Source of the DNA: Eubacteriales bacterium
Lineage (GTDB): Bacteria > Bacillota > Clostridia > Lachnospirales > Lachnospiraceae
DNA: 64,000 bases
Assembly (NCBI GenBank): GCA_030524715.1
Contig: JAUNGB010000006.1
Span: forward strand, 33,382-97,381
Reading direction: 5' to 3'
Notes under the pieces: generated by a model
Told to the model about the DNA's origin: nothing
The model's input: only the letters and a program-made list of their open reading frames with translations
The model's database searches: none
Shown: positions 24,590 to 45,373 of the stretch, one piece after another
Numbering within the stretch: the stretch's first letter is position 1
Layout of the letters: every line of letters starts with the position of its first letter
Program-made: the position numbers and the translations under genes

Positions 24590-25687
24590 CTACAAAACCT
24601 CATTGAGTACAGACAATCCGTACTCCGCAAGGCTATGATCTTCTTCTCCGGTACCTCCGCTGACGCCCAGGCCGCCGATGATCGTATCGCCCACCTTAAT
24701 GGGAACGCCACCGCCGAAAATAATAATATTTCCGCCTTCCATCTTATCCAGGCCATAGAAGGTTCCGCCGGGCTGTGCCAGCTTACTCAGCTCCATTGTA
24801 GACATCTTTACCGCCACAGAAGTATAAGCCTTTTTTACAGCCACGTCAAAGCTTACCAGAAAAGCCCCGTCCATCACATGGACAGCGATTGGATTACCGT
24901 CCGGACCGCAGACTGCAATAACCGCCTGTTTTCCCCGGCGTTTTGCTTCCTCTTCAATCCTCCCGATCAAACGCTTGGACGCATCCAGCGTAATCCTTCC
25001 CTGAATTCCCATACGCTTCAGCACTTCCTGAATCACAGCCTCGCTGACTGCGCCATTCTGATTTTCTCCCATAGCAGCAACCTTTCCCGCTCCAAAAGCA
25101 GAAGTCCCTGCCTGTCCCGGCATATCAGCGGCCTTCGTCTGTCCCGGCGTAGCTGCACCGGATACCGACGCTTCCGCCTCTTCTGCTTCCTTCGCATCCG
25201 TATATCTGGCAAGCACATAAAGATAATCCGCCAGACGGTTCATATACTTCTTTGTTCCGGTATCCGCCCCGAACTTCACACTCACCGCAGCCAATGCCCG
25301 TTCAGCCCGCCTTGCAACGGTCCGGGCCACATCTATTTCTGCGGAAAGCCGACAGCTTCCCGGAAGGATAAACTTTTTCGGACGCTCAAACAGCCCTTCC
25401 ATCCTGTCAATTTCTTCTTCAAGAATGGCTGTCTTATCGTCATTGATTTTATACTCTCTGTTATAAGGGTCTGCCACACCTGCCATCACCGTAATCAAAG
25501 TACCCTGAATCTTCTCCAGAATCCGGATGGTATCTCCATCCTTCAGCATGGTCTTCACCACGCCCAGATGACTGGTCAGCTCATCTATGGTACCCACAAG
25601 CTGGATTCTGTCATCCGACTTGGATACATTTTTCGTACGGATCAGGTCCGTGGTTCCTTTGTCTCCGTTTTTCGTATAAATATTCAT
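24590..25687 (-). CDS. pduO: Cob(I)alamin adenosyltransferase PduO with C-terminal GlcG/HbpS domain
   Basis: 365 residues from the ATG at 25687, set by GGGGGA seven bases upstream. The N-terminal PduO-type adenosyltransferase (about 1-180; YTKNGDKGTTDLI, FILPGSCRLSAEIDVARTVARRAER) makes the adenosylcobalamin cofactor of the diol dehydratase. A linker carries an amphipathic helix, AVSEAVIQEVLKRM, like an encapsulation peptide. The C-terminal GlcG/DUF336 domain (about 230-365; GGNIIIFGGGVPIKV, GGLGVSGGTGEED) is standard in two-domain PduO. It is the last gene of the cluster. Confidence 0.92.
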   Translation of the reverse strand: MNIYTKNGDKGTTDLIRTKNVSKSDDRIQLVGTIDELTSHLGVVKTMLKDGDTIRILEKIQGTLITVMAGVADPYNREYKINDDKTAILEEEIDRMEGLFERPKKFILPGSCRLSAEIDVARTVARRAERALAAVSVKFGADTGTKKYMNRLADYLYVLARYTDAKEAEEAEASVSGAATPGQTKAADMPGQAGTSAFGAGKVAAMGENQNGAVSEAVIQEVLKRMGIQGRITLDASKRLIGRIEEEAKRRGKQAVIAVCGPDGNPIAVHVMDGAFLVSFDVAVKKAYTSVAVKMSTMELSKLAQPGGTFYGLDKMEGGNIIIFGGGVPIKVGDTIIGGLGVSGGTGEEDHSLAEYGLSVLNEVL

Positions 25688-25808
25688 AACGGCATCCCCC
25701 ATAATTGTATACTGATAAGCTCATTCCATAACTCTCTATAAGCTTTGCTATCAGCCATAGCCTTACAGCTCTGGTGTAAGACATTGTATGAAAATAACAT
25801 GAACTTAC

Positions 25809-26144
25809 TCAATATACAGGTTTAAATGGCATTTTCTTAATTGCCCTCGCACTATTTGCCCCAAGATTCCGGCACTGCCGGAACGACGGCGCATTCAGCT
25901 CAAAGACGTTTTTTCCTTTTGGAAGACGCTGCATCTGCATTGCCAGCCGCGCCCCGCAAATCCCGATCCCGGATCCAAGCATCGACTCATTTGCCGCCTC
26001 AAACGCCAGATCGTCCAGATCTCCTTCGCGGTTCTGCACCTGATACAGAACGCCCTCTTCCTCAATCCCCGCATAGACCTCCCGAAGGAAATCCCTGTCC
26101 GGTTCCTTACAATATATAATTATCGTAGGCTTATTTACAACCAT
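25809..26144 (-). CDS. pduH: Diol dehydratase reactivase, small subunit
   Basis: 111 residues, the normal size. KPTIIIYCKEPDRD opens the fold, ANESMLGSGIGICG is the conserved middle, and RNLGANSARAIKKMPFKP ends the protein. With the large subunit it exchanges damaged cobalamin out of inactivated diol dehydratase at the cost of ATP. It starts 18 bases after the large-subunit gene. Confidence 0.9.
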   Translation of the reverse strand: MVVNKPTIIIYCKEPDRDFLREVYAGIEEEGVLYQVQNREGDLDDLAFEAANESMLGSGIGICGARLAMQMQRLPKGKNVFELNAPSFRQCRNLGANSARAIKKMPFKPVY

Positions 26145-26162
26145 ACCCTCACCACCCGCAGA

Positions 26163-27977
26163 TTAGAGCGTGTTTAAAAAGGACAGCACCAGCCCTGTCG
26201 CCACCGCATTCCGTGGTCCTTCCACCCCTCTGATATTTCCTCGTCCGCAAACGATCCGATACTCAGAAAGGGCCTCCATCAGCATCTCCGGAATCTCAAA
26301 ATCCTCCGCAGAGCCTCCGACCAGCACCACATTTGGAATTTTCCGCAGATCGCCCTCCGGCGCCACAGCCTTCAGCGCCCTCAGCGCATTCTTCACAAAA
26401 ACCTTTTTCTTCGCTTCCCGGCGGACCTCAAGGATCTTCTCCATAGGGATATCCTCTTCCACCTTCAGCATCTCATCCGGCGCCAGCAGCACCACATGCC
26501 CATAATACCTTGGATCGATGGATTCCTCAAAAAACTCCATAGCCCCGTTTTCCAGCCGCATATGAAAAAGGCTCTCCACCTTTCCCATGGGATATTTCTT
26601 AATCTGCTCCGCGGTCGTCCGGCTGCCAAGCCCAAGCTCTGTCTGGATCAGCATGGAAACAAGCTCTCCTGCCCCGGCCTGATGGGTAGTCCTCACCCTT
26701 CCATCTGGCTCCAGCACAGCAGCGTCCGTGGAGCCGCCGCCCATATCCAGAATGGCAAGAGGAAGCTTTGTCCCCGGCGTCGTCATCGCTCCAAGGGAAG
26801 CCATCACAGCCTCCACCCCCGCAACCACTGCCCGGACTCCAAGCTCATGCTCCAGTCTCTCGGCAATCTTCTTCATGGGAAGCTGCTGGGTCTTTACCAT
26901 AGCGGCAATCCCCACAGCCTTTTCCATACAGGTTTCCCCCGCCAGGGATCCGGAAATTTCCACCGGCGCAAGAGTATCCACAGCCAGAATATCCGTAATA
27001 CGGATCTCACTGTCATGTGCTTTGGCCACATCCGCCATACTTGTCTTAATGCGGGTAAGCATATTTCCTACGTTAGTGTCCGTCTCTCCGTCGATATCCC
27101 GCACTTCTCCCACCGAAGCAAGAGCGTCCATGATCCTGTCCGCCCCTGCGTCAATGCTCACTGTCACATCATGCTGTCCATGGACAGTAATTTCTCCGGC
27201 AGGAAGAACATTCTCCCGGATATTTCCATGGGGAGTCCTGATTACCACAGCGCTTCTCTTTCCGATCAGGCTCTTGGCAATGGGGGTGACCGCCTTCGTT
27301 TCCTCCGCATTCAGCTTCAGAAGCGTAGCGATTCCATAAGGGTTGGAAAGCATCCGGATACTGGTTCCGGGAAGCGCCACCTCAATGGCCGCCAGCTTTC
27401 CCTCCGGCACCTTTCCGATATGCCTTACCTCATCCACGATGGGAATTTTTTTATTCAGCCTGTTTTCCACCAGAACCGCCTCGTCCGCCTGCAGGATCAG
27501 CCCCCGGATATCCAGTTCCGGAATATGCTGATTCAGCCTTGCGGCGACTTCTTCATAGGAAAACTTACTGGCTGCCGCCACAATATACGGCGCCCCCGGC
27601 TTCCCCTTCCAGATATTTTCCAGAAAGATCAGTTCTCCCACCGCTTCCCCGGCCCCTGCCGGTGTGGATGGATTATGTCCGATCATAGAGGATTCCGTAA
27701 TGATGGTTTCGGTGATGGTCTCCATGGCCGTATCCCCGATCACCGGCGCCGCCTCATTAAGGCGCACAAGGTCAAGGGCGCTTAAAGGCTGCCGGATCTT
27801 ATCCATAGCCTCCATTAGCGCCGCCTTGATCCCATAAACATTCGGCAGTGTTCCTTTTGTTCCGGTAGTCATACGGGAAGCGCCGGAGAGGAACTGAAAA
27901 GATCCGTCCTCTCCAACAGCGCCGATACATACTTCAGTTGTGGAATTTCCTATATCAACACCTGCAATCAGTTTCAA
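26163..27977 (-). CDS. pduG: Diol dehydratase reactivase, large subunit
   Basis: 604 residues from a TTG at 27977, which gives the family start (M)KLIAGVDIGNSTTEV. Its TTGA overlaps the stop of the small dehydratase subunit, and AAGGGG lies eight bases upstream. An Hsp70/actin-like ATPase fold is visible: VDIGNSTTEV phosphate loop, LAILDMGGGSTDAAVL and VVLVGGSAEDFEIPEML. It reactivates diol dehydratase by releasing the spent cofactor. The longer frame to 28034 has no ribosome site. Confidence 0.93.
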   Translation of the reverse strand: MKLIAGVDIGNSTTEVCIGAVGEDGSFQFLSGASRMTTGTKGTLPNVYGIKAALMEAMDKIRQPLSALDLVRLNEAAPVIGDTAMETITETIITESSMIGHNPSTPAGAGEAVGELIFLENIWKGKPGAPYIVAAASKFSYEEVAARLNQHIPELDIRGLILQADEAVLVENRLNKKIPIVDEVRHIGKVPEGKLAAIEVALPGTSIRMLSNPYGIATLLKLNAEETKAVTPIAKSLIGKRSAVVIRTPHGNIRENVLPAGEITVHGQHDVTVSIDAGADRIMDALASVGEVRDIDGETDTNVGNMLTRIKTSMADVAKAHDSEIRITDILAVDTLAPVEISGSLAGETCMEKAVGIAAMVKTQQLPMKKIAERLEHELGVRAVVAGVEAVMASLGAMTTPGTKLPLAILDMGGGSTDAAVLEPDGRVRTTHQAGAGELVSMLIQTELGLGSRTTAEQIKKYPMGKVESLFHMRLENGAMEFFEESIDPRYYGHVVLLAPDEMLKVEEDIPMEKILEVRREAKKKVFVKNALRALKAVAPEGDLRKIPNVVLVGGSAEDFEIPEMLMEALSEYRIVCGRGNIRGVEGPRNAVATGLVLSFLNTL

Positions 27978-28369
27978 AGAAGAATTCCCCTTTTTTCGTA
28001 AATTTCCGCAGCTTCCAGCACCAGTTTGGCACAATGAGGCGCCTGATATTTCTCAAGCAGCTCTTTTGCCATCAGAACCAGTTCATTTTTGGTAGAACGG
28101 TTTGGGCGAAGCTTGTTGTACATGTTCAAAATCACATCATCCGGAACATTGGAAAGCTCGGCAGCCCTCTCAAAATTCGCTTCCATCTGGGGATTGTCTG
28201 CAGAAGCTGCCACCTGTCCCTGCCTCTTAAGCATTTCCGGCGAAATCTTAATATCTTCCGCAGTCACGCTGCCGCGCTTTACCTCATCAAGAGTGATCTG
28301 GGAAAGCTTTTTCCCTGTTTTGGAGGTAATGGTGTCGGCTTCGTACTGCCCTAAAGGATACTTACTCAT
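27974..28369 (-). CDS. pduE: B12-dependent propanediol dehydratase, small subunit
   Basis: 131 residues from the ATG at 28369 (GGGAGGG upstream; its ATGA overlaps the stop of the medium subunit). The conserved LSQITLDEVKRGSVTAEDIKISPEMLKRQ and RPNRSTKNELVLMAKELLEKY are present. The N-terminal encapsulation-like extension of the enterobacterial protein is missing, so targeting would depend on the medium subunit. It is part of the heterodimeric (alpha-beta-gamma)2 enzyme. Confidence 0.92.
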   Translation of the reverse strand: MSKYPLGQYEADTITSKTGKKLSQITLDEVKRGSVTAEDIKISPEMLKRQGQVAASADNPQMEANFERAAELSNVPDDVILNMYNKLRPNRSTKNELVLMAKELLEKYQAPHCAKLVLEAAEIYEKRGILL

Positions 28370-29049
28370 CTTGCGCCCTCCCATACAATCATGCCTTTTT
28401 CCGGATCAAGCTGCTCTGTTTCGATGATGTGCATCAGGGCGGCCTTTACCTGGAATTTCGCACGCACCATAGGGTCGTTGGTGCACTCGATCGGAGTCAC
28501 CTTTTCCCCTTTGACATATTTTGCTGCGTTTCTGCCGATCTTACGGTAGGTCTCAAGATTCATCAAAGGTGCCTGGGGGAAAAGCTCCAGATTCGTCAGA
28601 GGATAGAGATCCTTCTGATGAATGACGGTGGTTCCCTTGGACTGGATTCCGATTCCGATTCCGGAGCCGGAAAGCTTGGCTGCCTGGAGGGCCATAAAGC
28701 CTACATCCGAGGTATCCAGCACTTTTACCACACGGGAAACCATGCCTTCTTCTTCGATTCCTGCTTTCACATTGCGCAGCACCTCATCCAGCGGAATCCC
28801 GCCGATGGTCTTGGTGATCTCCGTCTGGAAAGCAGCCCCTACACCAATGACAACTTCCTTGGGGTCTGTCCCCTGTTTTGCCCTTACCGCACCTTCATAG
28901 GAACGCTTCGGGCGCATTCTTGTCTTCCCTGCAAGGCTCTGGGTACCGGAGCTTTTGGGAGACTCATCCGGGAGCTTCGCACCATTTCGCTGCAACTGCT
29001 CCACGACCGCTTTGGTTATGGCTTGTATCAGTTGTTCATTCACTTCCAT
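28366..29049 (-). CDS. pduD: B12-dependent propanediol dehydratase, medium subunit
   Basis: 227 residues. The first 20 (VNEQLIQAITKAVVEQLQR) form an amphipathic helix followed by a Ser/Pro-rich linker, the known encapsulation signal that takes diol dehydratase into the Salmonella Pdu compartment. The core has GVGAAFQTEITKTI, GIEEEGMVSRVV, SGIGIGIQSKGTTVIH and LELFPQAPL. The signal argues that this B12 enzyme uses the same shell as the glycyl-radical enzyme upstream. Confidence 0.93.
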   Translation of the reverse strand: MEVNEQLIQAITKAVVEQLQRNGAKLPDESPKSSGTQSLAGKTRMRPKRSYEGAVRAKQGTDPKEVVIGVGAAFQTEITKTIGGIPLDEVLRNVKAGIEEEGMVSRVVKVLDTSDVGFMALQAAKLSGSGIGIGIQSKGTTVIHQKDLYPLTNLELFPQAPLMNLETYRKIGRNAAKYVKGEKVTPIECTNDPMVRAKFQVKAALMHIIETEQLDPEKGMIVWEGAR

Positions 29050-29060
29050 GGCACAGCCTC

Positions 29061-30725
29061 CTAAAATTCATTTACATTGATCCGGTGAGGAATCGCTTTG
29101 ATCTCCTCCCAGCGTTTGCCTGTTACACGGTATCCGGTTCCCGGCCCCAGATAATCATTTGGCGTATTCACGCCGGACATTACCTGGAAATTCTCATCCA
29201 GGATCGCCGCGGTATGCATGTAATCTCCGATCACCCTCTGCTTGAGCATGTTCAGAATGCTCTGGGCAAGCTCGGTAAAGCCGCTCTCTGCCAGCGCCTT
29301 TACCACATCGATTCCTGTGATACCGCGCTTCATCAGATCATCCGCGGCCATCAGGTCGGACGCTACATCACGCTTTAAGGTGTCCTTGCTTCCATGGGCA
29401 TAGGTGACCGCCTCCACCTGCTCGTCTGTCACTTCCGTCAGTCCCAGATACTTAAACACAGCCTGCACGGCCTTCCCTGCTTCCCGGCGCACACGGATCA
29501 CTTCTTCCTCCGTCACCGGACGCAGACCGCCGTCCACCTGCATATCTCGCTGTAATACATTATAATCGTCAAAATCCTCCGCATCAAAGTTGGACCCTGC
29601 AAACATATTGTCATAGTTGGGTTCTGCCGCGTATCCGGAAAAGATAAAGTCTGTTCCCGGCATAAACTGCAGCATGGTCCTGGCAGTCCTTCTCATATCA
29701 GAGTTGGAAAAACTCTGGTCATTGGAGGACGCACATTCCAGTCCCAGCAGCGCCGCTACCAGATTCTCCCCGATGATCTCACGGATACCGGACGGCACGC
29801 TGGCCGCCACGCCCACACAGCTTACGGAACCGTTCTGGATTCCCTGGGAACCTGCGCCCTTAGTCACATACAGGCATCTGCATTCCAGATACAGCATGGA
29901 CTTTTTCTCACTGCTTCCCATCAAAACCTCGGAGCCGGAGCCGGAGGTAAAACGGACCTTCAGGCCCCGGGAGGCATAGGCTGAATTAAGAAACGCCTTG
30001 GAATACGGGGTATCATCCCCATCGATAAATACCTTTTCCGTACCGTAGACGGAAAGCGTTTCCGCATAGGTGGTCAGGCCGCGGATCCCAAGCTCCAGCT
30101 CGGTGGCTTCTTCCACCGCGCACTGGGTCAATACTCCCTTTCTTCCCACCTGGGAGCCGATCAACAACGCAATGGCATTAAACGGCGCATATCTTGCCAC
30201 ACCCGTTGTGGTTTCCTCTTCACTGAAACCACGGAGCGCGCCCTCCGCTGCGTCGGCGGCGATCTGCACCGGATCGTCCTTCAGATTGGTGATATGCGCC
30301 TGGTTGCCCGGCACCTTTCTGGCACGCATTTTCTGCATACCCATCATCATTTCCACCACATTCAGGTAATTGATGACCTCCACCATCTTTGCCGGAGTGA
30401 TTCCTGAGACAATTTCCAGAATTTCCTTCCGTGAGGTCTGGATATCCACGATCTTCCTTGCAATCTCCAGAGAGGGAATTGCCATGGAAGCCTCTGTCCT
30501 GTCAATACGGATAGCATAATCCGCGATAAACTGGTCAAGGAAATCAAAATCCCCGCGCTTTTTTCCGTCCAGCTCAGTGATGACTCCGTTTTCTACTTTT
30601 ACAGAAGGTTTTGGGTCATAGGGACTTTTCATGGCCACAAATCCCATTTCCGGCCATTCGTCAATAAATCCGTCTTTATTGACCGCCCTCTGATCCAAAA
30701 CCTCGATTCTTTTCGATCTTTTCAT
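29061..30725 (-). CDS. pduC: B12-dependent propanediol dehydratase, large (catalytic) subunit
   Basis: 554 residues, same length as Salmonella PduC. It forms the TIM barrel that binds adenosylcobalamin and the diol. Conserved stretches include RSKRIEVLDQRAVNKDGFI, GNQAHITNLKDDPVQIAADA, EEATELELGIRGLTTYAETLS, SGSGSEVLMG and NDQSFSNSDMRRTARTM. It turns 1,2-propanediol into propionaldehyde (glycerol into 3-hydroxypropionaldehyde). Only 48 bases separate it from the iron alcohol dehydrogenase gene and no promoter is visible there, so it is probably co-transcribed. Confidence 0.95.
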   Translation of the reverse strand: MKRSKRIEVLDQRAVNKDGFIDEWPEMGFVAMKSPYDPKPSVKVENGVITELDGKKRGDFDFLDQFIADYAIRIDRTEASMAIPSLEIARKIVDIQTSRKEILEIVSGITPAKMVEVINYLNVVEMMMGMQKMRARKVPGNQAHITNLKDDPVQIAADAAEGALRGFSEEETTTGVARYAPFNAIALLIGSQVGRKGVLTQCAVEEATELELGIRGLTTYAETLSVYGTEKVFIDGDDTPYSKAFLNSAYASRGLKVRFTSGSGSEVLMGSSEKKSMLYLECRCLYVTKGAGSQGIQNGSVSCVGVAASVPSGIREIIGENLVAALLGLECASSNDQSFSNSDMRRTARTMLQFMPGTDFIFSGYAAEPNYDNMFAGSNFDAEDFDDYNVLQRDMQVDGGLRPVTEEEVIRVRREAGKAVQAVFKYLGLTEVTDEQVEAVTYAHGSKDTLKRDVASDLMAADDLMKRGITGIDVVKALAESGFTELAQSILNMLKQRVIGDYMHTAAILDENFQVMSGVNTPNDYLGPGTGYRVTGKRWEEIKAIPHRINVNEF

Positions 30726-30773: not shown

Positions 30774-31925
30774 TCAGAAGGACCAAAGCTTCGTATAAAT
30801 CTTTACAATATCTTCCTTCGTAGGAACTCTTGGGTTATTCGCTGTACAGGCATCCGCAAGTGCGGCCTCCGCCATTTTATCTACTGCCGCAAAATACGCA
30901 TCCGGGGTAATCGTTCCGATTTCCTGGATGGTCAGAGGAATATTCATTTCCTTCTGCATAAACTGAATCCAGTTTACAAGCGACCGCACGCTCATAACCT
31001 TGTTATAATTACTGAGTCCCAGAATATGCGCAATATTCGCATATCGTTTTACTGCCGGAAGATACTCCTTCTGGCTTCTGCTGTGCTTATTGATATTGGC
31101 GTTAAATTCCACAATATGAGGCAGCAGCATTGCGTTTGCCCTTCCGTGGGGAATATGGAACACAGCGCCTAACTGATGCGCCATGCTGTGGGTAATTCCA
31201 AGTCCCGCCGTATTAAAGGAAAGTCCGGCAAGGCAGGACGCCACATGCATCTTCTGTCTTGCATGCATATCGCTTCCGTCCAGATACGCTCTTAAAAGGA
31301 ATACCCCGCAGATTTCAATGGATTTCTCTGCCAGTGCGGAAGAAAACTCATTGTGGTCTGTGCTTACGTAGGATTCCAGCGCATGGGTAAATACATCCAT
31401 GCCGGTATCCGCTGTAATGGCAGGGGGTACGCTCTTTACCAGTTCTGCGTCCAGGATCGCCTCGTCCGCTGTCAGTCTATCGGATACAAGAGGGTATTTC
31501 ACCTTTGCGTCCGTGTCGTTGACAACCGCGAAAGAGGTTACTTCGGAACCGGTACCGCTGGTGGTCGGAATGGCGATCAGGCCAACGTTTCCATAATTAT
31601 TGATCTTCAGGGCAAATTCACGGATAGCTTTGGATGAGTCGATGGCTGACCCGCCTCCGACTGCCACAATCGCTTCCGGCTGAAATTGAAGGAACTTCTT
31701 AACGCCCTCTGCAATTTTCCCTACCGGTGCATCCGGAACCACATCCTGGAAAATATCATACTGGATACCCGCGCTATCCAGAGGCGCCGTAATCAGATCA
31801 ATCATATGGCTCTGTACTACAAAAGGATCTGTGATAATCAGAACTCTTTTATAAGGAATAACTTTCAGCCTGTCCAAAGCGTTATCGCCAAAATGAATGA
31901 CTGTTTTCATTTCAAAGGTTTTCAT
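30774..31925 (-). CDS. Iron-containing alcohol dehydrogenase (lactaldehyde reductase FucO / propanol dehydrogenase PduQ type)
   Basis: 383 residues of the group III alcohol dehydrogenases. NAD-binding GGGSAIDSSKAI and ATPTTSGTGSEVT-like IPTTSGTGSEVT are present, with iron ligands in DTGMDVFTHALE and the two His of GITHSMAHQLGAVFHIPHG. It can reduce lactaldehyde to 1,2-propanediol or propionaldehyde to propanol. There is no encapsulation helix at either end, so it may act outside the shell. AAGGAG precedes the start. Confidence 0.9.
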   Translation of the reverse strand: MKTFEMKTVIHFGDNALDRLKVIPYKRVLIITDPFVVQSHMIDLITAPLDSAGIQYDIFQDVVPDAPVGKIAEGVKKFLQFQPEAIVAVGGGSAIDSSKAIREFALKINNYGNVGLIAIPTTSGTGSEVTSFAVVNDTDAKVKYPLVSDRLTADEAILDAELVKSVPPAITADTGMDVFTHALESYVSTDHNEFSSALAEKSIEICGVFLLRAYLDGSDMHARQKMHVASCLAGLSFNTAGLGITHSMAHQLGAVFHIPHGRANAMLLPHIVEFNANINKHSRSQKEYLPAVKRYANIAHILGLSNYNKVMSVRSLVNWIQFMQKEMNIPLTIQEIGTITPDAYFAAVDKMAEAALADACTANNPRVPTKEDIVKIYTKLWSF

Positions 31926-32001: not shown

Positions 32002-32766
32002 TTATTCCGGATATTTACACTCAATATCCAGATCCGCAAAATGATGGAGCCATTTGTCGCCCGGTTTTCTGTCTGTTACAACCACATCCACATCCCGCAG
32101 GCTTCCTGCAACGGAAAATGCGGTCTGGTCAAATTTGGTACTGTCTATTACCAGAATCTTTTTGCGTCCTGAGGCCATCATGGCTTTTTTTGTGGAGCCA
32201 AAAGCCTCCTGTGATTCCATGATCCCCCAGTTATGATCCAACGCCTTACAGGAAATGATCACCTTATCCACATAATAAGCCCTGATAGCTTCTTCTGTCT
32301 TGGAGCCCAGAAAGGCAAGATACCCTTCCTTCATCACTCCCCCGGTGGAAATGATATTCCAGCCGGAAACATCGGAAAGCTCAAGCAGGATCTCCATGGA
32401 ATTGGTAATGACCGTCAGCCGTTCTCTGGCCTTCAGCGCCTTTGCTACGAACACAGCCGTAGTGCTGGCGTCAAGGAAGATATGCTCCCCGTCCTGCACC
32501 AGAGAAGCGGTAATCTCCGCCATCTTCTGTTTTCCTGCAACATTCTGGTTTTTACGGATGTTAAAGGGCAAATCGATACTTACATCCTCATTAATCACCG
32601 CTCCGCCATAGCTCTTGGTGGCAAGCCCCTCTTTTTCAAGCTTGTCCAGATCCCGGCGGATGGTTTCTTCAGAAACATCATAAAGCTGACTGAGCTCGCT
32701 CACAACTACGCGCTTCTCAATCTGAAGTTTCTCGAGGATCAGGTTACGTCGTTCTAAAGCCAGCAT
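32002..32766 (-). CDS. DeoR-family transcriptional regulator of the microcompartment cluster
   Basis: 254 residues from the ATG at 32766 (GAGGAGGG upstream). The N-terminal helix-turn-helix is VVVSELSQLYDVSEETIRRDLDKLEKEG. The C-terminal sugar-phosphate-binding domain has IFLDASTTAVFVAKAL and LAFLGSKTEEAI, which resemble effector-binding motifs of DeoR sensors. The natural inducer would be fuculose- or rhamnulose-1-phosphate, or DHAP (inference). T-rich direct repeats upstream of the two main promoters (41026 and 45488) are likely binding sites. Confidence 0.9.
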   Translation of the reverse strand: MLALERRNLILEKLQIEKRVVVSELSQLYDVSEETIRRDLDKLEKEGLATKSYGGAVINEDVSIDLPFNIRKNQNVAGKQKMAEITASLVQDGEHIFLDASTTAVFVAKALKARERLTVITNSMEILLELSDVSGWNIISTGGVMKEGYLAFLGSKTEEAIRAYYVDKVIISCKALDHNWGIMESQEAFGSTKKAMMASGRKKILVIDSTKFDQTAFSVAGSLRDVDVVVTDRKPGDKWLHHFADLDIECKYPE

Positions 32767-32866
32767 ATTTTTGCCCTCCTCTACTCGTTTCATATGTGAT
32801 CGTGCCTGCATTGACAGGCAGATCCGCTTTGCTTATACGGGAAACGGCAGCTTTCCGTACCGCCTC

Positions 32867-33415: not shown

Positions 33416-33431
33416 GTTCTGCACGTCCTTT

Positions 33432-34760: not shown

Positions 34761-34764
34761 GGCG

Positions 34765-38578: not shown

Positions 38579-38595
38579 TGTTCTTCTCCTCCTGA

Positions 38596-39984
38596 TTAAC
38601 GAATGCAAAGGCTGTCAGACATTACGCAGCGTCTTCTCTTGGTAAAGGTGCTCGCGCTTGTCAGACCTTCTCCTGTACGGCTTGCGATAGTAAAGGTACA
38701 GTAGCCTTCTCCGCCGAATCCAAGAGCTGCATAGGACGGTGCATTCTTTACAAGGATCGCGGTATCGATTGCTTTCGCGTATTTGGTGATATTGTCAATG
38801 TTTTTGGAATGGATGTGCGCGGAATGGCGGTTGCCGTGCTCAAGCCATACGGCCTGCTCTACCGCGTCGTCAAAATCCCTTGCCCTTACAACGCCCAAGA
38901 TCGGCATCATAAGCTCTGTAGCGATCAGCGGATGCTCCTTGGGTCCTTCGAATACGATGCAGCGGATGTTTGCGGGAGCATTCACTCCGATCATGGAAAG
39001 AAGGGTTTTGGCGTCGCGTCCTACGCATTTACGGTTCAGCTTACCTCCTGCCAGAACAACAGCGGTCAGCTTGTCCTGCTCTTCCTTGGAAGCCAGATAG
39101 CAGTCGTTTTCTGATACAAGATAATGCATCAATTCATCCGTCACGGAAGCAACCGCTACGATCTCCTTCTCTGCAATACACGGAAGGTTATTGTCAAAAG
39201 TACATCCGTTTACGATATCCTGGGCTGCCTTGCGGACGTCGGCAGTCTCGTCCACCACTGCGGGAGGATTTCCTGCGCCTGCGCCAATGCCTCTCTTTCC
39301 GGAGGAAAGAACCGCGGTTACCACGCCGGGGCCGCCTGTTGCCGCGATCAGCGGGATATCTTTATGTTTCATCATAATGTTGCTTGTTTCTAATGTAGGT
39401 TTCTCTACCGTTACGGCAATGTTGTCCGGCCCGCCTGCCTCCAGGGAAGCTTCGTTTACCAGATTGATTGCGTAAACAGAGGTTTTGATGGCTGCCGGAT
39501 GGGGGTTGAATACAACAGTATTTCCGCCTGCCAGCATGCCGATGGTATTGCACAGAACGGTTTCACTGGGGTTTGTACATGGAGTGATCGCTCCGATCAC
39601 ACCGAACGGCCCCATTTCGATCAGGGTCAGTCCTCTGTCCCCGGACCATGCAGTTGTGGTAATATCCTCAGTACCCGGGGTCTTGTCAGCTACCAGATGG
39701 TGTTTGAGGATCTTGTCTCCTACATTTCCCATTCCTGTTTCGTCAACCGCCATACGGGCGAGGATTTCTGCATTTTCCCTGATTTTTTTACGCATGCAGG
39801 TAATGATTTTTTCTCTCTGGTCCATGGACATTCTTTTTACGATAAGCTCAGCCTTCTTAGCGGCCTCGATCGCATCGTTCATATCCTTGAATATGCCATG
39901 TTTTCCGGTGGGAGCGTCTGCAATCTGCATTTTTGCCATGACTTCCTGTACAATTTCCTGTACCATATTTTCACTGATTGGCAT
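38596..39984 (-). CDS. pduP: CoA-acylating propionaldehyde dehydrogenase, PduP type
   Basis: 462 residues from the ATG at 39984 (AAGGAGGACAATCTC upstream). The N-terminal helix ISENMVQEIVQEVMAKMQ is an encapsulation signal, followed by a Gly/His linker. The aldehyde dehydrogenase core has TPCTNPSETVLCNTIGMLAGGN, AATGGPGVV and the catalytic cysteine in DNNLPCIAEKE. It oxidises propionaldehyde with NAD and CoA to propionyl-CoA. Confidence 0.93.
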   Translation of the reverse strand: MPISENMVQEIVQEVMAKMQIADAPTGKHGIFKDMNDAIEAAKKAELIVKRMSMDQREKIITCMRKKIRENAEILARMAVDETGMGNVGDKILKHHLVADKTPGTEDITTTAWSGDRGLTLIEMGPFGVIGAITPCTNPSETVLCNTIGMLAGGNTVVFNPHPAAIKTSVYAINLVNEASLEAGGPDNIAVTVEKPTLETSNIMMKHKDIPLIAATGGPGVVTAVLSSGKRGIGAGAGNPPAVVDETADVRKAAQDIVNGCTFDNNLPCIAEKEIVAVASVTDELMHYLVSENDCYLASKEEQDKLTAVVLAGGKLNRKCVGRDAKTLLSMIGVNAPANIRCIVFEGPKEHPLIATELMMPILGVVRARDFDDAVEQAVWLEHGNRHSAHIHSKNIDNITKYAKAIDTAILVKNAPSYAALGFGGEGYCTFTIASRTGEGLTSASTFTKRRRCVMSDSLCIR

Positions 39985-40017
39985 GAGATTGTCCTCCTTA
40001 CTATTTGTCAGGTTCAA

Positions 40018-40872
40018 TTATTTCAGTCCTAACTGAGCCATTACCTGTTTCGTGATATTTGCTACCAGTTCAGCGTCTGCCGCCGGAGTTTCCTTGGAGG
40101 AACATTCCTTTCCGACAAAATCATACTGATATCCCGGGAACTGCTTGTAGTCGTCGCCGCATGCACCGCAGTTATGGCAGTTCTTTCCGTCCTTGTTCAG
40201 GCAGATGCTTGCCGGATGTTTGCCGGGCATACCGAATTTACGGCGGATCGCATACAGCTTCTCAATATTCTTCTCATCGAATTCCTTGGGGCCGCCGAGC
40301 AGCTTGGACTGATACAGAAGCTGTGCATAGAACTCAACAGATTCCATCTTCATGTAAGCAGCGTTCAGGTCTGTACTCCAGGTAAGTGCTCCGTGGTTCT
40401 CAAGAAGAACTGCGTCGAAGTATGGAAGGTATTTTTCCAGATTATCCGGAATTTCCATAGTGGAAGGTGTGCCATATTCAGCAATCGGCACGCAGCCAAG
40501 AGCGATAACTGCTTCAGGCATGATCGGCTGTGTCAGCGGGATACCTGCGATTGCAAAAGAGGTTGCATAAATCGGATGAGCATGAACAACAGATCCGACA
40601 TCCGGTCTCTTCTCATATACTCTCATATGCATTTTGATCTCAGAAGACGGTTTGAATCCCGGGTTAGCCTGGATCACATTGCCCTTTGCGTCTACCTTAC
40701 AGATAAATTCCGGGGTCATAAAGCCCTTGGATACGCCTGTAGGTGTGCAAAGGAATTCATTGTCGTTCAGCTTAACGGAAATATTACCGTCGTTTGCTGC
40801 TACCATGTTGCGGTTGTAGATTCTTCTACCGATGTCGCAAATCTGTTTTTTGATTTCGTATTCGTTTACCAT
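40018..40872 (-). CDS. Class II aldolase, fuculose/rhamnulose-1-phosphate type, with C-terminal encapsulation peptide
   Basis: 284 residues from the ATG at 40872 (AAGGAGGAAGAAAGC upstream). The AraD/FucA fold shows the DGNISVK motif, zinc ligands VHAHPIYATSF and ENHGALTW. After residue about 215 a Cys-rich stretch (CHNCGACGDDY) leads to the helix DAELVANITKQVMAQLGLK, a C-terminal encapsulation signal known from glycyl-radical fucose compartments. It makes DHAP and L-lactaldehyde, probably at or in the shell. It is the first gene behind its own promoter. Confidence 0.92.
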   Translation of the reverse strand: MVNEYEIKKQICDIGRRIYNRNMVAANDGNISVKLNDNEFLCTPTGVSKGFMTPEFICKVDAKGNVIQANPGFKPSSEIKMHMRVYEKRPDVGSVVHAHPIYATSFAIAGIPLTQPIMPEAVIALGCVPIAEYGTPSTMEIPDNLEKYLPYFDAVLLENHGALTWSTDLNAAYMKMESVEFYAQLLYQSKLLGGPKEFDEKNIEKLYAIRRKFGMPGKHPASICLNKDGKNCHNCGACGDDYKQFPGYQYDFVGKECSSKETPAADAELVANITKQVMAQLGLK

Positions 40873-40988
40873 GCTTTCTTCCTCCTTGAGCGCATTTGGT
40901 TTGTTGTCCCTGCCGTTTATGCCGGGACATTGGGTGCCTGTGCGGTTTCCACATAAGCACATTTGGTTTTTCTTTGTTTCTAAGCAAA

Positions 40989-41017
40989 ATTGTACTCTAT
41001 TTCGCCGGAAAAGTCAA
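40989..41017 (-). promoter_or_regulatory. Promoter of the aldolase - shell - pdu transcription unit
   Basis: TTGACT and TACAAT are 18 bases apart on the minus strand, about 115 bases before the aldolase start. T-rich repeats that may be DeoR sites lie directly upstream. Confidence 0.75.
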
Positions 41018-41025
41018 GAAAAACC

Positions 41026-41078
41026 TGTTGTTTCGTGTTGTTTTTGTTGTATTTTTTATGTTGTTTTTATTGTGATTC
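41026..41078. promoter_or_regulatory. Direct-repeat operator region upstream of the aldolase promoter
   Basis: TGTTGTTT occurs at 41026, 41036 and 41059, with a partial at 41045 and TGTGATTC at 41071, at roughly ten-base spacing. The same motifs (TGTGGTTT twice, TGTGATTT) stand upstream of the dehydratase promoter near 45488. The in-cluster DeoR regulator is the natural reader (inference). Confidence 0.5.
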
Positions 41079-41537
41079 CTTTTTTTGCTCTTCCCAGGGC
41101 ATTACATCTCCTTCTTCCCGCAAATATTCCAGGATTTCCGCAATTCCCTCGTGCTTTTTGGAATCCACATAAAAAATCTTTTTGCAGCCGGCAAGCCTCA
41201 GCCATGAAGCGGCACGCTCCGGTCTGGCATCGGGGTGGTTGATCTTCGTCACGATCCCGACCACCTCCCTGTTCGCCATACAGGTGCAGCAGGGCGGAAA
41301 CAGGCAGTACGGCTCAATGGCCGAGCAGATAAGGCCGACAATATCCGCTTCATAGGAATAAAGGGCAAGGGCATGTCCAAGTCCCTTCGTCTGGGCATAC
41401 TCTCCCGGCGTATCTATAATAACGTCAAAATGATTTACATATTGTGTTTTGTGATAATGAATCTTTTCGCCGCGCAGGGCCTGGGTAAGGGTTGTCTTCC
41501 CGGCCTCGCTGCGGCCCATCAAAGCTATTTTTTTCAT
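41067..41537 (-). CDS. PduV/EutP-family small GTPase-like protein
   Basis: 156 residues. It has a P-loop, GRSEAGKTT, near the start, DTPGEYAQ as the G3-like motif, and VTKINHPDA in place of NKxD. A Cys-rich insertion (CLFPPCCTCMANR) is present. PduV/EutP proteins associate with microcompartments; a role in their cellular positioning has been proposed. It follows the permuted shell protein by seven bases, and a promoter region separates it from the aldolase gene. Confidence 0.88.
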   Translation of the reverse strand: MKKIALMGRSEAGKTTLTQALRGEKIHYHKTQYVNHFDVIIDTPGEYAQTKGLGHALALYSYEADIVGLICSAIEPYCLFPPCCTCMANREVVGIVTKINHPDARPERAASWLRLAGCKKIFYVDSKKHEGIAEILEYLREEGDVMPWEEQKKESQ

Positions 41538-41544
41538 TGTTTCC

Positions 41545-41919
41545 TTAAGTTCTGGTGATCGGACATACGGCGAAGCCTAATTTTCCGCCCACATAGTCCA
41601 AAATAGCATTTACTGCCGCCTCCACCTCCGATACGGTGCCTGTGATGATCAGGCTTCCGCTGAAACGGTCTACAAAGCCCAGCTCCACGCCGGAGGATTT
41701 GAGGGAAATATCCCCCATGATGATCGCCGTTTCCGCAGGACTTACTGTCAGTATACCGATAGCAGAACGGGAATATTCTATGGCCGGATCAAGCCCCAGC
41801 TTCGTATATAATACTTTGTCAGGATTAGCGATAATATGCGCTAATGAAATCTGCTTGCCGGGAACCTGTTCCTGCACAATACGCTGCAGTTCCGGCGGCA
41901 TACCTCCCGAATATCCCAT
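41545..41919 (-). CDS. pduU: Circularly permuted BMC-H shell protein, PduU/EutS family
   Basis: 124 residues. An N-terminal segment (QRIVQEQVPGKQISLAHIIANP) forms the extra beta-barrel cap of PduU/EutS. The permuted BMC domain follows (AIGILTVSPAETAIIMGDISLKSSGVELGFVDRFSGSLIITGTVSEVEAAV). It lies three bases after the activase gene, in the same transcription unit as the glycyl-radical enzyme. Confidence 0.9.
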   Translation of the reverse strand: MGYSGGMPPELQRIVQEQVPGKQISLAHIIANPDKVLYTKLGLDPAIEYSRSAIGILTVSPAETAIIMGDISLKSSGVELGFVDRFSGSLIITGTVSEVEAAVNAILDYVGGKLGFAVCPITRT

Positions 41920-41922
41920 AAA

Positions 41923-42714
41923 TCAGCCTCCTATCTGGCAGTCCAGCGCGCATACGGCATGTACTGCCTTTTTCAATGTTTCCATATGTTCCATAGTGGG
42001 AGGAATGATTCCTTCCATCAGATATTTCCTGCCAAGGCCGTCGTATTTATCCTGCCCCAGCCTGTGATACGGCAGAAGATGGATCTTATCCACACCCGGC
42101 AGCGTAGAGGCAAAGCGGGCAATGTCCTGGATTTCCGGCACAGTGTCGTTAAAGGTCGGAATGACCGGGACGCGGATCACCAGACGGGTCTGTCCTGAAA
42201 TAGCAACCTTTCTGGCATTTTCCATCATCAGCTCATTGCTTCTGCCTGTAAATTCCTTATGCTTGGCAGGATTGGTATGCTTGATGTCCATCAGATAAAG
42301 ATCCAGGTAAGGCAGGATCATTTCTATCTTCTCGTAGGAAGCGCACGCCATGCTTTCGATGGCAGTGTTGATCCCCCGTTCTTTCGCCGCCCGCAGCAGG
42401 TCTCTGGAAAATTCCGGCTGGCAAAGGCATTCCCCGCCGGAAAGGGTCATTCCGCCGCCGGAACGATAATAGTAGGAACGATCCTTTTCCACTAGCTCTA
42501 TCATTTCCCGGACAGCGACATCACGACCGATCAGTTTTTCCTCGCCCTGAACCATCATAGTCTGGACAGCGTATTCCTGGGATTCCGGATTACAGCACCA
42601 GCGGCACCGCAGAACGCAGCCTTTCAAAAACACGATCGTCCGGATTCCCGGACCATCATGGATAGAATAACGCTGGACATCGAAAATCCTGCCTTTCCGT
42701 TCTAAATAATCCAT
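41923..42714 (-). CDS. Glycyl-radical enzyme activating enzyme (radical SAM)
   Basis: 263 residues from the ATG at 42714, the start preceded by GAAAGAGGTAAT; a longer frame to 42786 lies in tandem repeats. YSIHDGPGIRTIVFLKGC leads to the radical-SAM cluster motif CVLRCRWC, then GGMTLSGGECLCQ. The ferredoxin-like double Fe-S insertion common in activases is absent, as in pyruvate formate-lyase activase. It installs the glycyl radical on the dehydratase encoded just upstream. Confidence 0.93.
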   Translation of the reverse strand: MDYLERKGRIFDVQRYSIHDGPGIRTIVFLKGCVLRCRWCCNPESQEYAVQTMMVQGEEKLIGRDVAVREMIELVEKDRSYYYRSGGGMTLSGGECLCQPEFSRDLLRAAKERGINTAIESMACASYEKIEMILPYLDLYLMDIKHTNPAKHKEFTGRSNELMMENARKVAISGQTRLVIRVPVIPTFNDTVPEIQDIARFASTLPGVDKIHLLPYHRLGQDKYDGLGRKYLMEGIIPPTMEHMETLKKAVHAVCALDCQIGG

Positions 42715-42849
42715 ATTACCTCTTTCCCGGCCGTATGGCCATAGTGGTATCCCTGTGGGATTTCCTCTTTTCTGGCGAATAGCCATAATGGTATCCCCGC
42801 GGGATTACCTCTTTCCTGGCCGCATGGCCATCATGGTATCCCCGCCCAG
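42715..42849. repeat. Three tandem 44-45-base repeats between dehydratase and activase genes
   Basis: Copies begin at 42715, 42760 and 42804. On the minus strand each carries an ATACCA-TATGG-CAT segment and a ribosome-site-like AAAGAGGTAAT (or AAAGAGGAAAT). They fill the whole gap, and only the last copy is followed by the true activase start. Confidence 0.8.
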
Positions 42850-42853
42850 TTGT

Positions 42854-45373
42854 CTAAAAGCCCTGCTCGGTCCTGCGGATGATGTCATCCTGCAGGGAAC
42901 GGGAAAGCGTTGTAAACAAAGCGCTGTACCCTGCTACGCGTACCACCAGATGCTTGTATTTTTCAGGATGCTCCTGGGCATCCAGAAGAGTTTCCCTGTC
43001 AACAACGTTAAACTGTACGTGCATGCCCTTCTGGTCGAAATATGACCGGATCAGCGCCACAAATTTCTCCAGCCCCTCTCTTCCGGACAATGCCGAAGGA
43101 TGGAACTTCTGATTAAACAGAGTACCATTGGATACAATAAAGTGATCCAGACGGGATACAGAGGTCATGGCCGCGGTAGGCCCGTTTACATCCTTCCCTG
43201 CGGACGGAGAAACACCGTCTGCCACAGGAGCATGGGCATAACGCCCGTCCGGAGTAGCGCCTGTCTGTCCCCCGAGAGGCACATTGGCAGATACCGGATA
43301 AAGGCCTGCCTGGAACTGTCCGCCCCGGGGATTCTTATAATTCTGAAGGGGACGCGTGTAAGTGTACGCCACATCCCTGGCAAAGTAGTCCACCTCCGGA
43401 ATATCATTGCCATACTTCGGAACCTCTTCAATCATGTTATGTAATTCTTCATATCTGGCTTTCTGCGCCGGGGTCGGCTGAATATTCATGACTGCCTTTA
43501 ATATAGAAGAAACAGTGCTGCTGTCAATGGTTTTTCCCTGTGCCTGCATTTCTTCAAGAATGGAAACCGTAATTTCAGATACAGACTGCTCGTCCAGTCC
43601 TTTTCCGTAATTCCATGCCAGAGCTTCCTTATACTCCTGCATGGTAACCTTCTTCTCCTGATAAACAAGCTGACGGATGGCATACAGAGAATCCGCCATA
43701 TTGGCAATTCCAAAGCCCTGCGGCCCGGTAAAGTTATAAACCGCGCCGCCCTCCTGAACCGTAAGTCCGCGTTTCAGGCAGTCATCCACCATAGATGATA
43801 AAAACGGCAGGGGACAAAGCTCGGCATGAGCCACGTCAATGGCGTTATCCGCATTTACCAGAAGAGAAATGCAGTATTCCATCTGTTTCTTGTAAGCGTC
43901 ATAAAATTCCTCAAAGGTAGACATCTTTGTGACATCTCCGGTGGGGATTCCCACCATCTCGCCCTTATCCATACCATTTGCAAATACCAGTTCCAGCGGA
44001 CGGCACATATTAAAGAACGCCGCATCATGCCATCCCTCGGTCTTGCCGGCCTTCTGAGGCTCCACGCATCCGATGATATTATATTCCCTGGCGTCCTCAA
44101 GAGATAAGCCCCGGCTCTGCAGGGATGGAATGATTACTTCGTCGTTATAATACGCCGGAAGCCCGATCCCGGTTCTGGTAAGCTCTGCCGCCTTAATAAG
44201 AAATTCATGGGGCGAGCCGTTCCATACCCTCACGGAAAGAGACGGCTGGGGCAAATGTACATGCATAGACGCCTGAATACACATGATGGACAGGTCATTG
44301 GTCACATCCACTCCATCCTTATTCTGGCCTCCTGCGATCAGATTCTGGAAAAGGCTGTAGCCCGCAAAGCCCTCTGCGGATGCAGCGTCACGGCATTTGT
44401 TCAGGTCGTTCAGCTTCACCCAGACACAGTCCATCAGTTCCTGGGCAAATTCCCGGGTGATTGTTTTATTCTCCATATCCTTCTGATAGTAAGGATACAT
44501 GTACTGGTCAAAGCGCCCCGGTGAAATGGAATGGCCGCTGGACTCCAATTGAAGAAGCTGCTGAACAAACCAGAAGGACTGGCAGGCTTCATAAAAGCCC
44601 TCAGCGCCTTTAGCCGGAACACGGCGGCAGTTCTCTGAGATCGCCAGAAGCTCCTGCTTCCTTACAGGGTCACTGCACCCGGAAGCCATCTCAGCCGCCA
44701 GATCCGAATAACGCCCTGCATATTCAATGGCTGCCTGGCAGCTTGTGATCACTGCCTTGAGAAAATGAGAACGTCTTGCATAATCGCCGTCGCCCACCTG
44801 GCATTTATCCAGTTCCGCCTGGGCCTTGGCAATGATCCCCTCAAAGCCGATAGCAAGTACCTCCTCATATTTAACAGTTACATGTCCTACGCCGTTATAA
44901 AAATAGTTCCCGGGCGTAAAAATATTGTGTTCGATCGCCTTAATTGCCTCCGGCGCCATATAGGCAGTAGCAAGCTCACTGGTTGTCTTCCCTTTCCAGT
45001 ATTTATGAACCTCCCGAAGCTCCTGCTTTGTTTCTTCAGCGATATAAAACGGGTCCGCGCTCCTCGTTTCAACCGTATCCAATTCGTCTTCCAGCCATTG
45101 ATAAGAAAATTCCGGATAAGTCTGGCATCCTCTCGGCGCGATTGTACTGCTTCCTACGATCAGCTCTTCATCCCGGATGATAATGGGAATGTGACGCAGG
45201 ATATGTGCAAAGGCTTCCGCACGCCGGGTGATAATCGGCTGGCCTTCGGTAGCTCTGTAGGACTCTGTGATAAGCTTCGCCCTGGCAGATTCGATGACCG
45301 GCATCTTTTCATACAGATGGTCTACCAACCGGGTAATTCTGGAAGATTTTGGAATATCTGTGGTATTGAACAT
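42854..45373 (-). CDS. Glycyl-radical (B12-independent) 1,2-propanediol dehydratase
   Basis: 839 residues from the ATG at 45373 (AAAGGAG upstream; the frame extends to 45451 without a ribosome site). It belongs to the pyruvate formate-lyase superfamily. The active-site loop is NIIGCVEPQ with catalytic Cys and Glu, and the C-terminal glycyl radical motif is VVRVAGYSALF. It should remove water from 1,2-propanediol to give propionaldehyde; glycerol is an alternative substrate that cannot be excluded. No obvious encapsulation extension is seen. It is the first gene of the supercluster behind a consensus promoter. Confidence 0.9.
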   Translation of the reverse strand: MFNTTDIPKSSRITRLVDHLYEKMPVIESARAKLITESYRATEGQPIITRRAEAFAHILRHIPIIIRDEELIVGSSTIAPRGCQTYPEFSYQWLEDELDTVETRSADPFYIAEETKQELREVHKYWKGKTTSELATAYMAPEAIKAIEHNIFTPGNYFYNGVGHVTVKYEEVLAIGFEGIIAKAQAELDKCQVGDGDYARRSHFLKAVITSCQAAIEYAGRYSDLAAEMASGCSDPVRKQELLAISENCRRVPAKGAEGFYEACQSFWFVQQLLQLESSGHSISPGRFDQYMYPYYQKDMENKTITREFAQELMDCVWVKLNDLNKCRDAASAEGFAGYSLFQNLIAGGQNKDGVDVTNDLSIMCIQASMHVHLPQPSLSVRVWNGSPHEFLIKAAELTRTGIGLPAYYNDEVIIPSLQSRGLSLEDAREYNIIGCVEPQKAGKTEGWHDAAFFNMCRPLELVFANGMDKGEMVGIPTGDVTKMSTFEEFYDAYKKQMEYCISLLVNADNAIDVAHAELCPLPFLSSMVDDCLKRGLTVQEGGAVYNFTGPQGFGIANMADSLYAIRQLVYQEKKVTMQEYKEALAWNYGKGLDEQSVSEITVSILEEMQAQGKTIDSSTVSSILKAVMNIQPTPAQKARYEELHNMIEEVPKYGNDIPEVDYFARDVAYTYTRPLQNYKNPRGGQFQAGLYPVSANVPLGGQTGATPDGRYAHAPVADGVSPSAGKDVNGPTAAMTSVSRLDHFIVSNGTLFNQKFHPSALSGREGLEKFVALIRSYFDQKGMHVQFNVVDRETLLDAQEHPEKYKHLVVRVAGYSALFTTLSRSLQDDIIRRTEQGF

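Follow-up and report, generated by a model that had tools for sequence, protein, structure and literature searches.

A recurring GRM5 fucosome variant with two probably interchangeable dehydratases, one glycyl-radical and one B12-dependent

The GRM5 type of bacterial microcompartment (BMC), as far as it is described in the accessible text of Petit et al. (PMC3557285), is represented by Clostridium phytofermentans Cphy_1174-1187 and by a locus of Roseburia inulinivorans. Its genes encode, in order, a glycyl-radical enzyme (GRE), its activase, a PduU-like protein, FucA, an aldehyde dehydrogenase (AldDH), a zinc-dependent alcohol dehydrogenase (Zn-ADH), BMC-H shell proteins, PduL, BMC-P, PduS, PduT and an SrlR-like regulator, and two known loci of this type are described in the same text as lacking pduCDE and pduGH. 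Further GRM5 traits, according to the accessible sections of PMC6325248, are the presence of both PduS and PduT and an activase without a ferredoxin insertion. Here we examine a stretch of 64,000 nucleotides (the window) from Eubacteriales bacterium, a Blautia-like gut member of the Lachnospiraceae (assembly GCA_030524715.1, contig JAUNGB010000006.1, positions 33,382 to 97,381), in which a single microcompartment cluster follows the GRM5 gene order and also carries a B12-dependent dehydratase set.

The cluster runs from 45373 to 24590, on the minus strand throughout, in the order GRE, activase, PduU, PduV, FucA, PduP, Zn-ADH (the GRM5 ‘lactaldehyde reductase’, LR), four BMC-H genes, PduL, BMC-P, PduS, PduT, a DeoR-family regulator, an iron-containing alcohol dehydrogenase (Fe-ADH), PduC, D, E, G, H and O. 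It has the GRM5 combinations of GRE with activase, of FucA with a Zn-type LR (family-level matches) and of PduS with PduT (below curated cut-offs), and relative to the described GRM5 loci it has PduV, Fe-ADH and PduCDE-GH-O as additional genes. With the Salmonella-type propanediol utilization (PDU) system it has homologues of PduCDE, PduGH, PduO, PduP, PduL, PduS, PduT, PduU and PduV in common. It differs from that system in placing FucA and LR within the cluster, in having a second, B12-independent dehydratase, and in carrying no recognised PduB-type BMC-T, given that PduB models match only the PduT-like gene, at 26-34 bits against cut-offs of 173-310. The earlier note on this DNA had placed a radical dehydratase with its activase at one end and PduCDE-GH-O at the other, on one strand around a common core; NCBIfam and Pfam profile scans confirm this and match every gene that it named. 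The arrangement that it proposed looking for in related genomes, with both enzyme sets in one cluster, was found at 9 of 80 loci.

We interpret the cluster, with a probability of roughly two in three on sequence evidence, as a GRM5-type fucosome that carries two co-induced, interchangeable and non-homologous catalysts for the conversion of 1,2-propanediol to propionaldehyde. At the level of gene content, the coexistence and interchange of GRE and PduCDE are demonstrated, and the GRM5 fucosome with two catalysts is a real variant that recurs. The source genome measures 5.28 Mb in 210 contigs, with a contamination estimate of 5.02%. An assembly or contamination artefact is nonetheless ruled out, because nine other genomes, isolates among them, have the dual cluster.

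The GRE (42854..45373, minus strand, as are all cluster genes and promoter-like sites below) is identified as a glycyl-radical 1,2-propanediol dehydratase of the GRM5 type by its profile match, by its GCVE (thiyl) and RVAGY (glycyl) motifs and by an insertion not found in glycerol dehydratase. Among solved structures it matches R. inulinivorans diol dehydratase best (1338.8 bits; 5i2a/5i2g), compared with 1026.8 bits for glycerol dehydratase 1r8w, to which the insertion, at approximately residues 613-666, does not align. The start at 45373 fits two observations, namely a sigma-70-like site with 12/12 matching positions at 45459-45431 and an alignment with 5i2a that begins at residue 28 of the longer open reading frame (ORF). 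The activating enzyme (AE) is a radical SAM protein with a CxxxCxxC motif (41923..42786, probable start near 42714), and a motif search found no ferredoxin-type CxxCxxCxxxC motif in it, as in GRM5.

At the opposite end, the large subunit of a B12-dependent glycerol/diol dehydratase, PduC (29061..30725), carries Q142, H144, E171, E222, Q297, D336 and S363, which we take to be active-site residues. It is followed by the medium subunit PduD (28366..29049), which has an N-terminal encapsulation-type helix IQAITKAVVEQL, and by a short form of the small subunit PduE (27974..28384; 136 amino acids, with no counterpart to positions 1-38 of the PduE profile). The reactivase is represented by PduG (alpha, 26163..28034, true start likely downstream of 28034) and a PduH-like beta subunit (25809..26144, called from Pfam Dehydratase_MU at 101.7 bits), and the cob(I)alamin adenosyltransferase PduO (24590..25702) carries an HbpS-like domain. 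The set of PduCDE, reactivase PduGH and adenosyltransferase PduO is complete, with PduE just below the cut-off of its best model. Median pN/pS values in ten dual loci were 0.12 for GRE, 0.07 for PduC, 0.06 for PduP, 0.13 for LR and 0.11 for PduS, and these ratios are rough, as synonymous sites are close to saturation. PduH and PduO fell outside the test, having too few usable rows in most sets. GRE and PduC, these comparisons show, keep their active-site residues and are, by such estimates, under purifying selection in dual loci. Decay of one of the two dehydratases was considered, and the low ratios, rough as they are, give no sign of it.

Expression of the cluster probably begins at two predicted transcription starts rather than one. 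A sigma-70-like site search located P1 (TTGACA-17-TATAAT, 45431..45459) ahead of GRE and P2 (TTGACT-17-TACAAT, 40989..41017) ahead of FucA, each with AAACMACA repeats upstream. Among the window and its 33 nearest loci, the region ahead of GRE was available in 19, that ahead of FucA in 30 and that ahead of PduC in 18. A P1 site matching at least 11 of 12 positions lies within 330 bases in 18/19 loci and is perfect in 15/19 (shuffle mean 0.1), and the sole miss, L054, has a 12/12 site farther upstream. P2 sites of at least 10/12 are present in 24 of 30 loci (shuffles 1.09). Ahead of PduC, none of the 18 loci has a promoter-like site at 10/12 or better, and one has a site at 9/12. At least one AAACMACA copy per 250-base region occurs at P1 in 18/19 loci, at P2 in 26/30 and ahead of PduC in 0/18, with a background of 0.057 per 250 bases. 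The gap between the Fe-ADH gene in the PduQ position and PduC is 48 bases in the window and 11 bases in L026 and L045.

Rfam scans at gathering score, which covered the window, L005-L011 and 14 further loci, detected no cobalamin riboswitch inside any cluster, including those of the window and of dual loci L025, L026, L032, L035, L037, L045, L054 and L061. The nearest one in the window (49880-50077, minus strand) precedes a small PF04071-type cysteine-rich gene (49261-49575, minus strand). Such a riboswitch with a same-strand PF04071-like gene recurs near the cluster in L025, L027, L029, L039, L054 and L061, and in the window and five of these six loci (all except L054) a PHP-domain gene opposed to the cluster lies between the pair and the cluster. 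The pair of L025 is directed away from the cluster. That of L054 is on the same strand as GRE, with the riboswitch approximately 1.1 kb ahead of it, and is followed by a terminator-like hairpin (identified by eye), the 12/12 P1 site and then a Clostridiales-1 RNA between P1 and GRE. Control of the cluster by a B12 riboswitch is unsupported, as the riboswitches near the cluster precede the PF04071-like gene and none lies inside it. The Clostridiales-1 RNA of L054 spans 2659-2864; another lies inside the cluster of L036 (12680-12813), and of three in L011, two flank a free-standing PduCDEGHO operon and the third is nearby (2376-2529, 8871-9016, 12564-12717).

The distribution of the two enzymes was followed in 80 loci from named genomes, the best 80 among the listed matches of a scan with an LR alignment, which represent a near neighbourhood rather than a census. 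Within the fetched stretches, many of which end early, both enzymes are present in 9 loci (L025, L026, L031, L032, L035, L037, L045, L054 and L061), GRE only in 29, PduC only in 8 and neither in 34; PduU and PduV are missing from four of the dual loci (L031, L032, L035, L054). Nearest named loci are labelled Blautia, or at family or order level only, and the dual cluster is present, among others, in isolate records that bear the names Blautia caecimuris (DSM 29492) and B. schinkii (DSM 10518). Whole-genome searches of the 33 nearest genomes (L025-L055, L061, L065) gave both enzymes in 11, GRE only in 12, PduC only in 10 and neither in 0, and the other 47 genomes gave 6, 31, 9 and 1, respectively. 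In sum, 17 of the 80 genomes have both, 43 GRE only, 19 PduC only and 1 neither. Many of these genomes are metagenome-assembled, and the GRE match is partial in G733 (L043) and G767 (L077). Independence would predict 11 genomes with neither enzyme (20 x 44 / 80), against the 1 observed (Fisher p ~1e-7, uncorrected for kinship). In a scan of the family, GRE was found in 73/397 genomes (a few by partial matches), 17 of which also have PduC; an order-wide scan found PduC in 29/392 genomes, 10 of which also have GRE. Both scans overlap with the 80 loci (for example, G372 is the genome of L031 and G411 that of L074). Two adjoining GRE-like ORFs, which may represent a duplication or one interrupted gene, head a fucosome cluster in L077 / L115.

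The surroundings of PduC were fetched for 14 of the 28 other PduC genomes of the order scan, including 8 of the 22 outside the family. All 8 of the latter carry PduCDEGHO in a fucosome-type cluster with no GRE, flanked by FucA on one side and PduP on the other, and 6 of these genomes have no GRE match. Inside the family, G351 has a single run of shell-PduCDEGHO-GRE-AE-PduU-PduV with a PduO-GRE gap of 17 bp. G403 and G664 have PduCDEGHO-GRE-AE with no shell genes alongside, and G584 has a PduC-activase gap of 5.9 kb; shell genes occupy other positions in these three genomes. A shell-less PduCDEGHO-GRE-AE operon, its dehydratases back to back, is seen in L105 and L106, where the shell genes are on separate contigs. 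Operons of PduCDEGHO that stand alone, at a distance from shell genes, occur in G382, G355 and G371, which are among the 12 genomes searched for shell genes, all 12 of which have them. In L112 and L108, PduCDEGHO sets are accompanied by a DeoR-type regulator and a 477-amino-acid ORF, away from shell genes within the stretch.

Traces of gain or loss are seen at both ends of the cluster. Eleven loci have no GRE in front, namely the 10 PduC-only loci and L052, which has GRE elsewhere in its genome. PduU is kept in 6 of them (L027, L029, L030, L039, L051, L052) and was not seen in the stretches of the other 5 (that of L028 ends early). All 6 PduU-keeping loci have a sigma-70-like site of at least 11/12 ahead of PduU, accompanied by AAACMACA in 5. 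The simplest reading of these gene orders is that GRE-AE was lost from behind its promoter, with gain as another possibility. Full-length PduO without CDEGH follows Fe-ADH in L034 (18011-19123) and L065 (17497-18555), which have GRE only and no PduC match in the genome. A PduO of 313 amino acids remains in L040, and the HbpS part alone remains in L046 and L048. At E 1e-3, no CDEGH remnants were found in 11 GRE-only stretches (some of them short; the L053 genome has PduC on another contig), nor GRE/AE remnants in 8 GRE-less stretches (some likewise short). On a core-gene tree of 54 rows, the presence of GRE changes at least 6 times and that of PduC at least 10 times, gains and losses being counted alike, and the starred clade of the window is dual in 4/4 rows. 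The tree was made by a quick method, with 15 of 51 inner branches open and with L041 and L057 dropped for having too few core genes. Because relatives carry either enzyme or both, the two look like exchangeable components of a single organelle.

Both catalysts look as if they are addressed to the shell, judging from helix patterns. A hydrophobic-moment test proved weak (shuffles as high per 1000: LR 11, PduL 36, PduD 88, FucA 170, PduP 183, GRE insertion 246), and therefore a residue pattern was used. Among the cluster proteins, the pattern occurs in PduD (position 8), PduL (6), LR (18, with a second at 240), PduP (19), FucA (300) and GRE (624), and in no others. Its rate is 0.94 per 1000 amino acids across the cluster proteins, scanned together with FucI and an unassigned ORF, versus 0.22 in the other window ORFs of at least 200 amino acids. 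The pattern is conserved in PduD in 39/44 loci, in FucA in 81/90, in LR in 83/93 and in PduP in 81/91, and G382, G355 and G371 likewise have the PduD helix in their free-standing sets. That the GRE insertion does not align with 1r8w is consistent with the accessible parts of PMC6325248 and PMC5311937, which describe an intramolecular encapsulation peptide in GRM3/4/5 enzymes.

Going by the families involved, FucA would split fuculose-1-phosphate, the lactaldehyde would be reduced to 1,2-propanediol, either GRE or PduCDE would dehydrate this diol, and PduP, PduL and the alcohol dehydrogenases would complete the pathway. The GRE-AE unit is predicted to start at P1, with the shell, core enzymes and PduCDEGHO following P2. 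Sharing operator-like repeats, P1 and P2 probably answer to one regulator, such that both catalysts would be made together on fucose and, each bearing an encapsulation-type helix, probably be packed in the same shell. PduCDE may then serve as a constant second catalyst running on the cell’s own B12, a hedge against losing the oxygen-sensitive GRE or B12, and related genomes appear to handle the two enzymes as exchangeable cassettes. The stricter proposal, that one shell loads both dehydratases at once on one fucose signal, that propanediol turnover survives the loss of either radical chemistry, and that gut Lachnospiraceae acquire and discard the two as cassettes in fixed slots around an unchanged shell, we advance tentatively, at slightly less than an even chance.

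Not all observations favour two co-induced catalysts in one fucosome, and those that weigh against this reading are collected here. The AAACMACA motif was picked, and the helix pattern written, after inspection of the sequences and helices concerned. The helix pattern in the GRE insertion is conserved in only 4/45 loci. Both enzymes occur in 17 genomes of the family, of which only 5 (G000, G351, G403, G664, G584) have them within 15 kb and 12 have them apart; in G069 and G079, two of the B12-type fucosome genomes outside the family, GRE is on another contig, away from shell genes. Terminator-like hairpins ahead of PduC in dual loci L025, L037 and L061, and another in the DeoR-PduC interval of G351 (none was found in the window), suggest that PduC may be attenuated in some species. 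PduC reaches 865 bits against Klebsiella glycerol dehydratase 1iwp but 817 bits against diol dehydratase 1dio, and its ‘propanediol’ specificity therefore depends on context, its substrate not being fixed. Finally, Ravcheev et al. argue, in the accessible part of PMC6620236, for a dehydratase step outside the fucose/rhamnose pathway.

The earlier note had envisaged that the cell swaps enzymes according to B12 supply or oxygen exposure, with gene regulation favouring PduCDE under ample B12 or in the presence of oxygen, and GRE under other conditions. Separate control is conceivable with two promoters, one for GRE and one for the shell/Pdu unit, and the hairpins ahead of PduC in three dual loci and the riboswitch ahead of GRE in L054 could be taken in the same sense. 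However, the repeats at P1 and P2 are the same, the riboswitches lie outside the cluster and precede a PF04071-like gene, and in L054 the hairpin and the perfect P1 stand between that gene and GRE. The distribution of CbiC (PF02570), our single marker gene for B12 synthesis, speaks against such a switch as well. In the family sample, CbiC is above cut-off in 15/17 genomes with GRE and PduC versus 28/56 with GRE only (Fisher p 0.005). In the named set, which overlaps that sample, it is found in 16/17 dual, 18/19 PduC-only, 9/13 GRE-only (13 of 43 tested) and 1/1 neither-state genomes, and the genome of the window carries it. The B12 enzyme tracks hosts that probably make B12, and a model of outside B12 supply is therefore weakened. 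Shared repeats, a PduC without a promoter-like site of its own and CbiC in the hosts point to co-induction, not to a switch, which we regard as improbable; a choice between the enzymes could still be made post-transcriptionally. Other parts of the earlier proposal fared better. Its single shared cluster holds, probably with two transcription starts instead of one, and the encapsulation helix claimed for PduD is matched as an N-terminal residue pattern. Its two catalyst sets in one shell are favoured by the common cluster and by helices on both enzymes, with the poorly conserved GRE helix as the weaker part.

If one dehydratase were simply in transit to replacing the other, the dual state would be a neutral redundancy with no selected role. 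Both single states are seen, including a P1-like promoter without GRE-AE and PduO retained without CDEGH, and presence changes are frequent on the tree. Yet in dual loci both enzymes are under strong purifying selection by the rough ratios above, the clade of the window is uniformly dual, and linkage recurs in several differing layouts, which together make this explanation unlikely in our view. A division of substrates, with GRE acting on fucose-derived 1,2-propanediol and PduCDE mainly on glycerol or another diol, would suit the PduC scores and the extra Fe-ADH immediately ahead of PduC. It fits poorly with 19 of 80 fucosome genomes that have PduC without GRE, with the single genome that lacks both, and with the adjacency of PduC and FucA in all 8 fucosomes examined outside the family, and we consider it quite improbable. 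A split location, in which PduCDE is cytosolic and GRE alone is packed, or the reverse, is suggested by the free-standing operons of G382, G355 and G371. The PduD helix pattern extends to these very sets, and their genomes have shell genes, so that we find this last explanation very doubtful.

The remaining cluster genes, all identified by profile match, comprise a PduU/EutS-like BMC-H shell protein (41545..41919), a PduV/EutP GTPase-like protein (41067..41537), FucA, a class II fuculose/rhamnulose-phosphate-type aldolase with a C-terminal encapsulation-type helix (40018..40872), and two enzymes with N-terminal helices of this type, the PduP-type CoA-acylating aldehyde dehydrogenase (38596..40017) and LR (37358..38608; named after the accessible text of PMC6325248). 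These are followed by four BMC-H genes (37019-37333, 36694-36969, 36295-36591, 35807-36283), PduL phosphate propanoyltransferase (35106..35750), the BMC-P vertex protein (34765..35031), a PduS-like RnfC-family flavo/FeS protein (33432..34814), a PduT-like BMC-T protein (32867..33445), the DeoR-family regulator (32002..32811) and Fe-ADH (30774..31925). Nine matches exceed curated cut-offs (bits/cut-off): PduO N-domain 149/108, PduG 903/400, PduD 275/248, PduC 957/788, PduL 267/209, AldDH 658/403, PduV/EutP 143/138, activase 287/174 and GRE 805/678. PduE (173.8/183), PduT, PduS, BMC-P, the BMC-H genes, PduU, FucA, Zn-ADH (LR), Fe-ADH and the DeoR-type regulator have strong E-values below the cut-offs of their best single models, and genes below cut-off were named from family and position. 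An L-fucose isomerase gene adjoins the cluster (19353..21146, minus strand), as one does near the cluster in G372 and G369. Also beside it are ORFs of 348 and 201 amino acids (23137-24183, minus; 22257-22862, plus) without a Pfam or NCBIfam match, and farther away (50318-52246, minus) lies a 642-amino-acid protein that combines Ig-like domains with penicillin-binding domains of the Tp47 type (PF14888, PF14889).

Two components of this picture are already in print separately, namely the co-occurrence of the two enzymes in a genome and the placement of a B12 enzyme next to a fucose microcompartment. In the accessible portions of the literature, supplementary tables excepted, we found no statement that both enzymes occupy one cluster (sources included PMC6325248, PMC8217296, PMC6620236, PMC4207490, PMC9403272, PMC8156839, PMC3557285, PMC11414229 and PMC5311937). 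The text available for PMC9403272 reports 28 Clostridiales genomes with both propanediol dehydratases and does not state a common cluster or shell. Clostridium methylpentosum resembles the window in that a B12-dependent diol dehydratase is co-localised with a fucose/rhamnose BMC (Ravcheev et al. 2019, PMC6620236). It is the single printed case with which the layout outside the family agrees, but the passages available mention the B12 enzyme alone, whereas the window unites GRE and PduCDE in one cluster.

Similar ideas have been raised for other microcompartments, again according to the parts of the sources available. For PDU1AB and GRM4, the idea is that the signature enzyme can change with shell make-up retained (Sutter et al. 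2021, PMC8217296); that case is a replacement, whereas here both enzymes coexist, with single and dual states among close relatives. RMM2 loci, suggested to be possibly bifunctional, resemble the window in combining two candidate signature enzymes, one of them a diol dehydratase, in one BMC locus (Axen et al. 2014, PMC4207490). However, these enzymes would act on different substrates, and the genes of the dehydratase are on the opposite strand, whereas the two enzymes of the window would serve one step from one strand. The present loci offer a natural experiment on whether the shell is indifferent to its catalyst, on the worth of each catalyst under oxygen or B12 stress, and on the design of two-catalyst compartments. 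Direct testing is feasible because the dual cluster is found in records of strains labelled B. caecimuris DSM 29492 and B. schinkii DSM 10518. A speculation that mutually exclusive use of B12-dependent PDU and glycyl-radical GRM3 systems reflects different niches is reported by Zarzycki et al. (2017, PMC5311937). In the fucosomes described here, both kinds of catalyst share one cluster, and among close relatives one shell is combined with GRE alone, with the B12 enzyme alone or with both.

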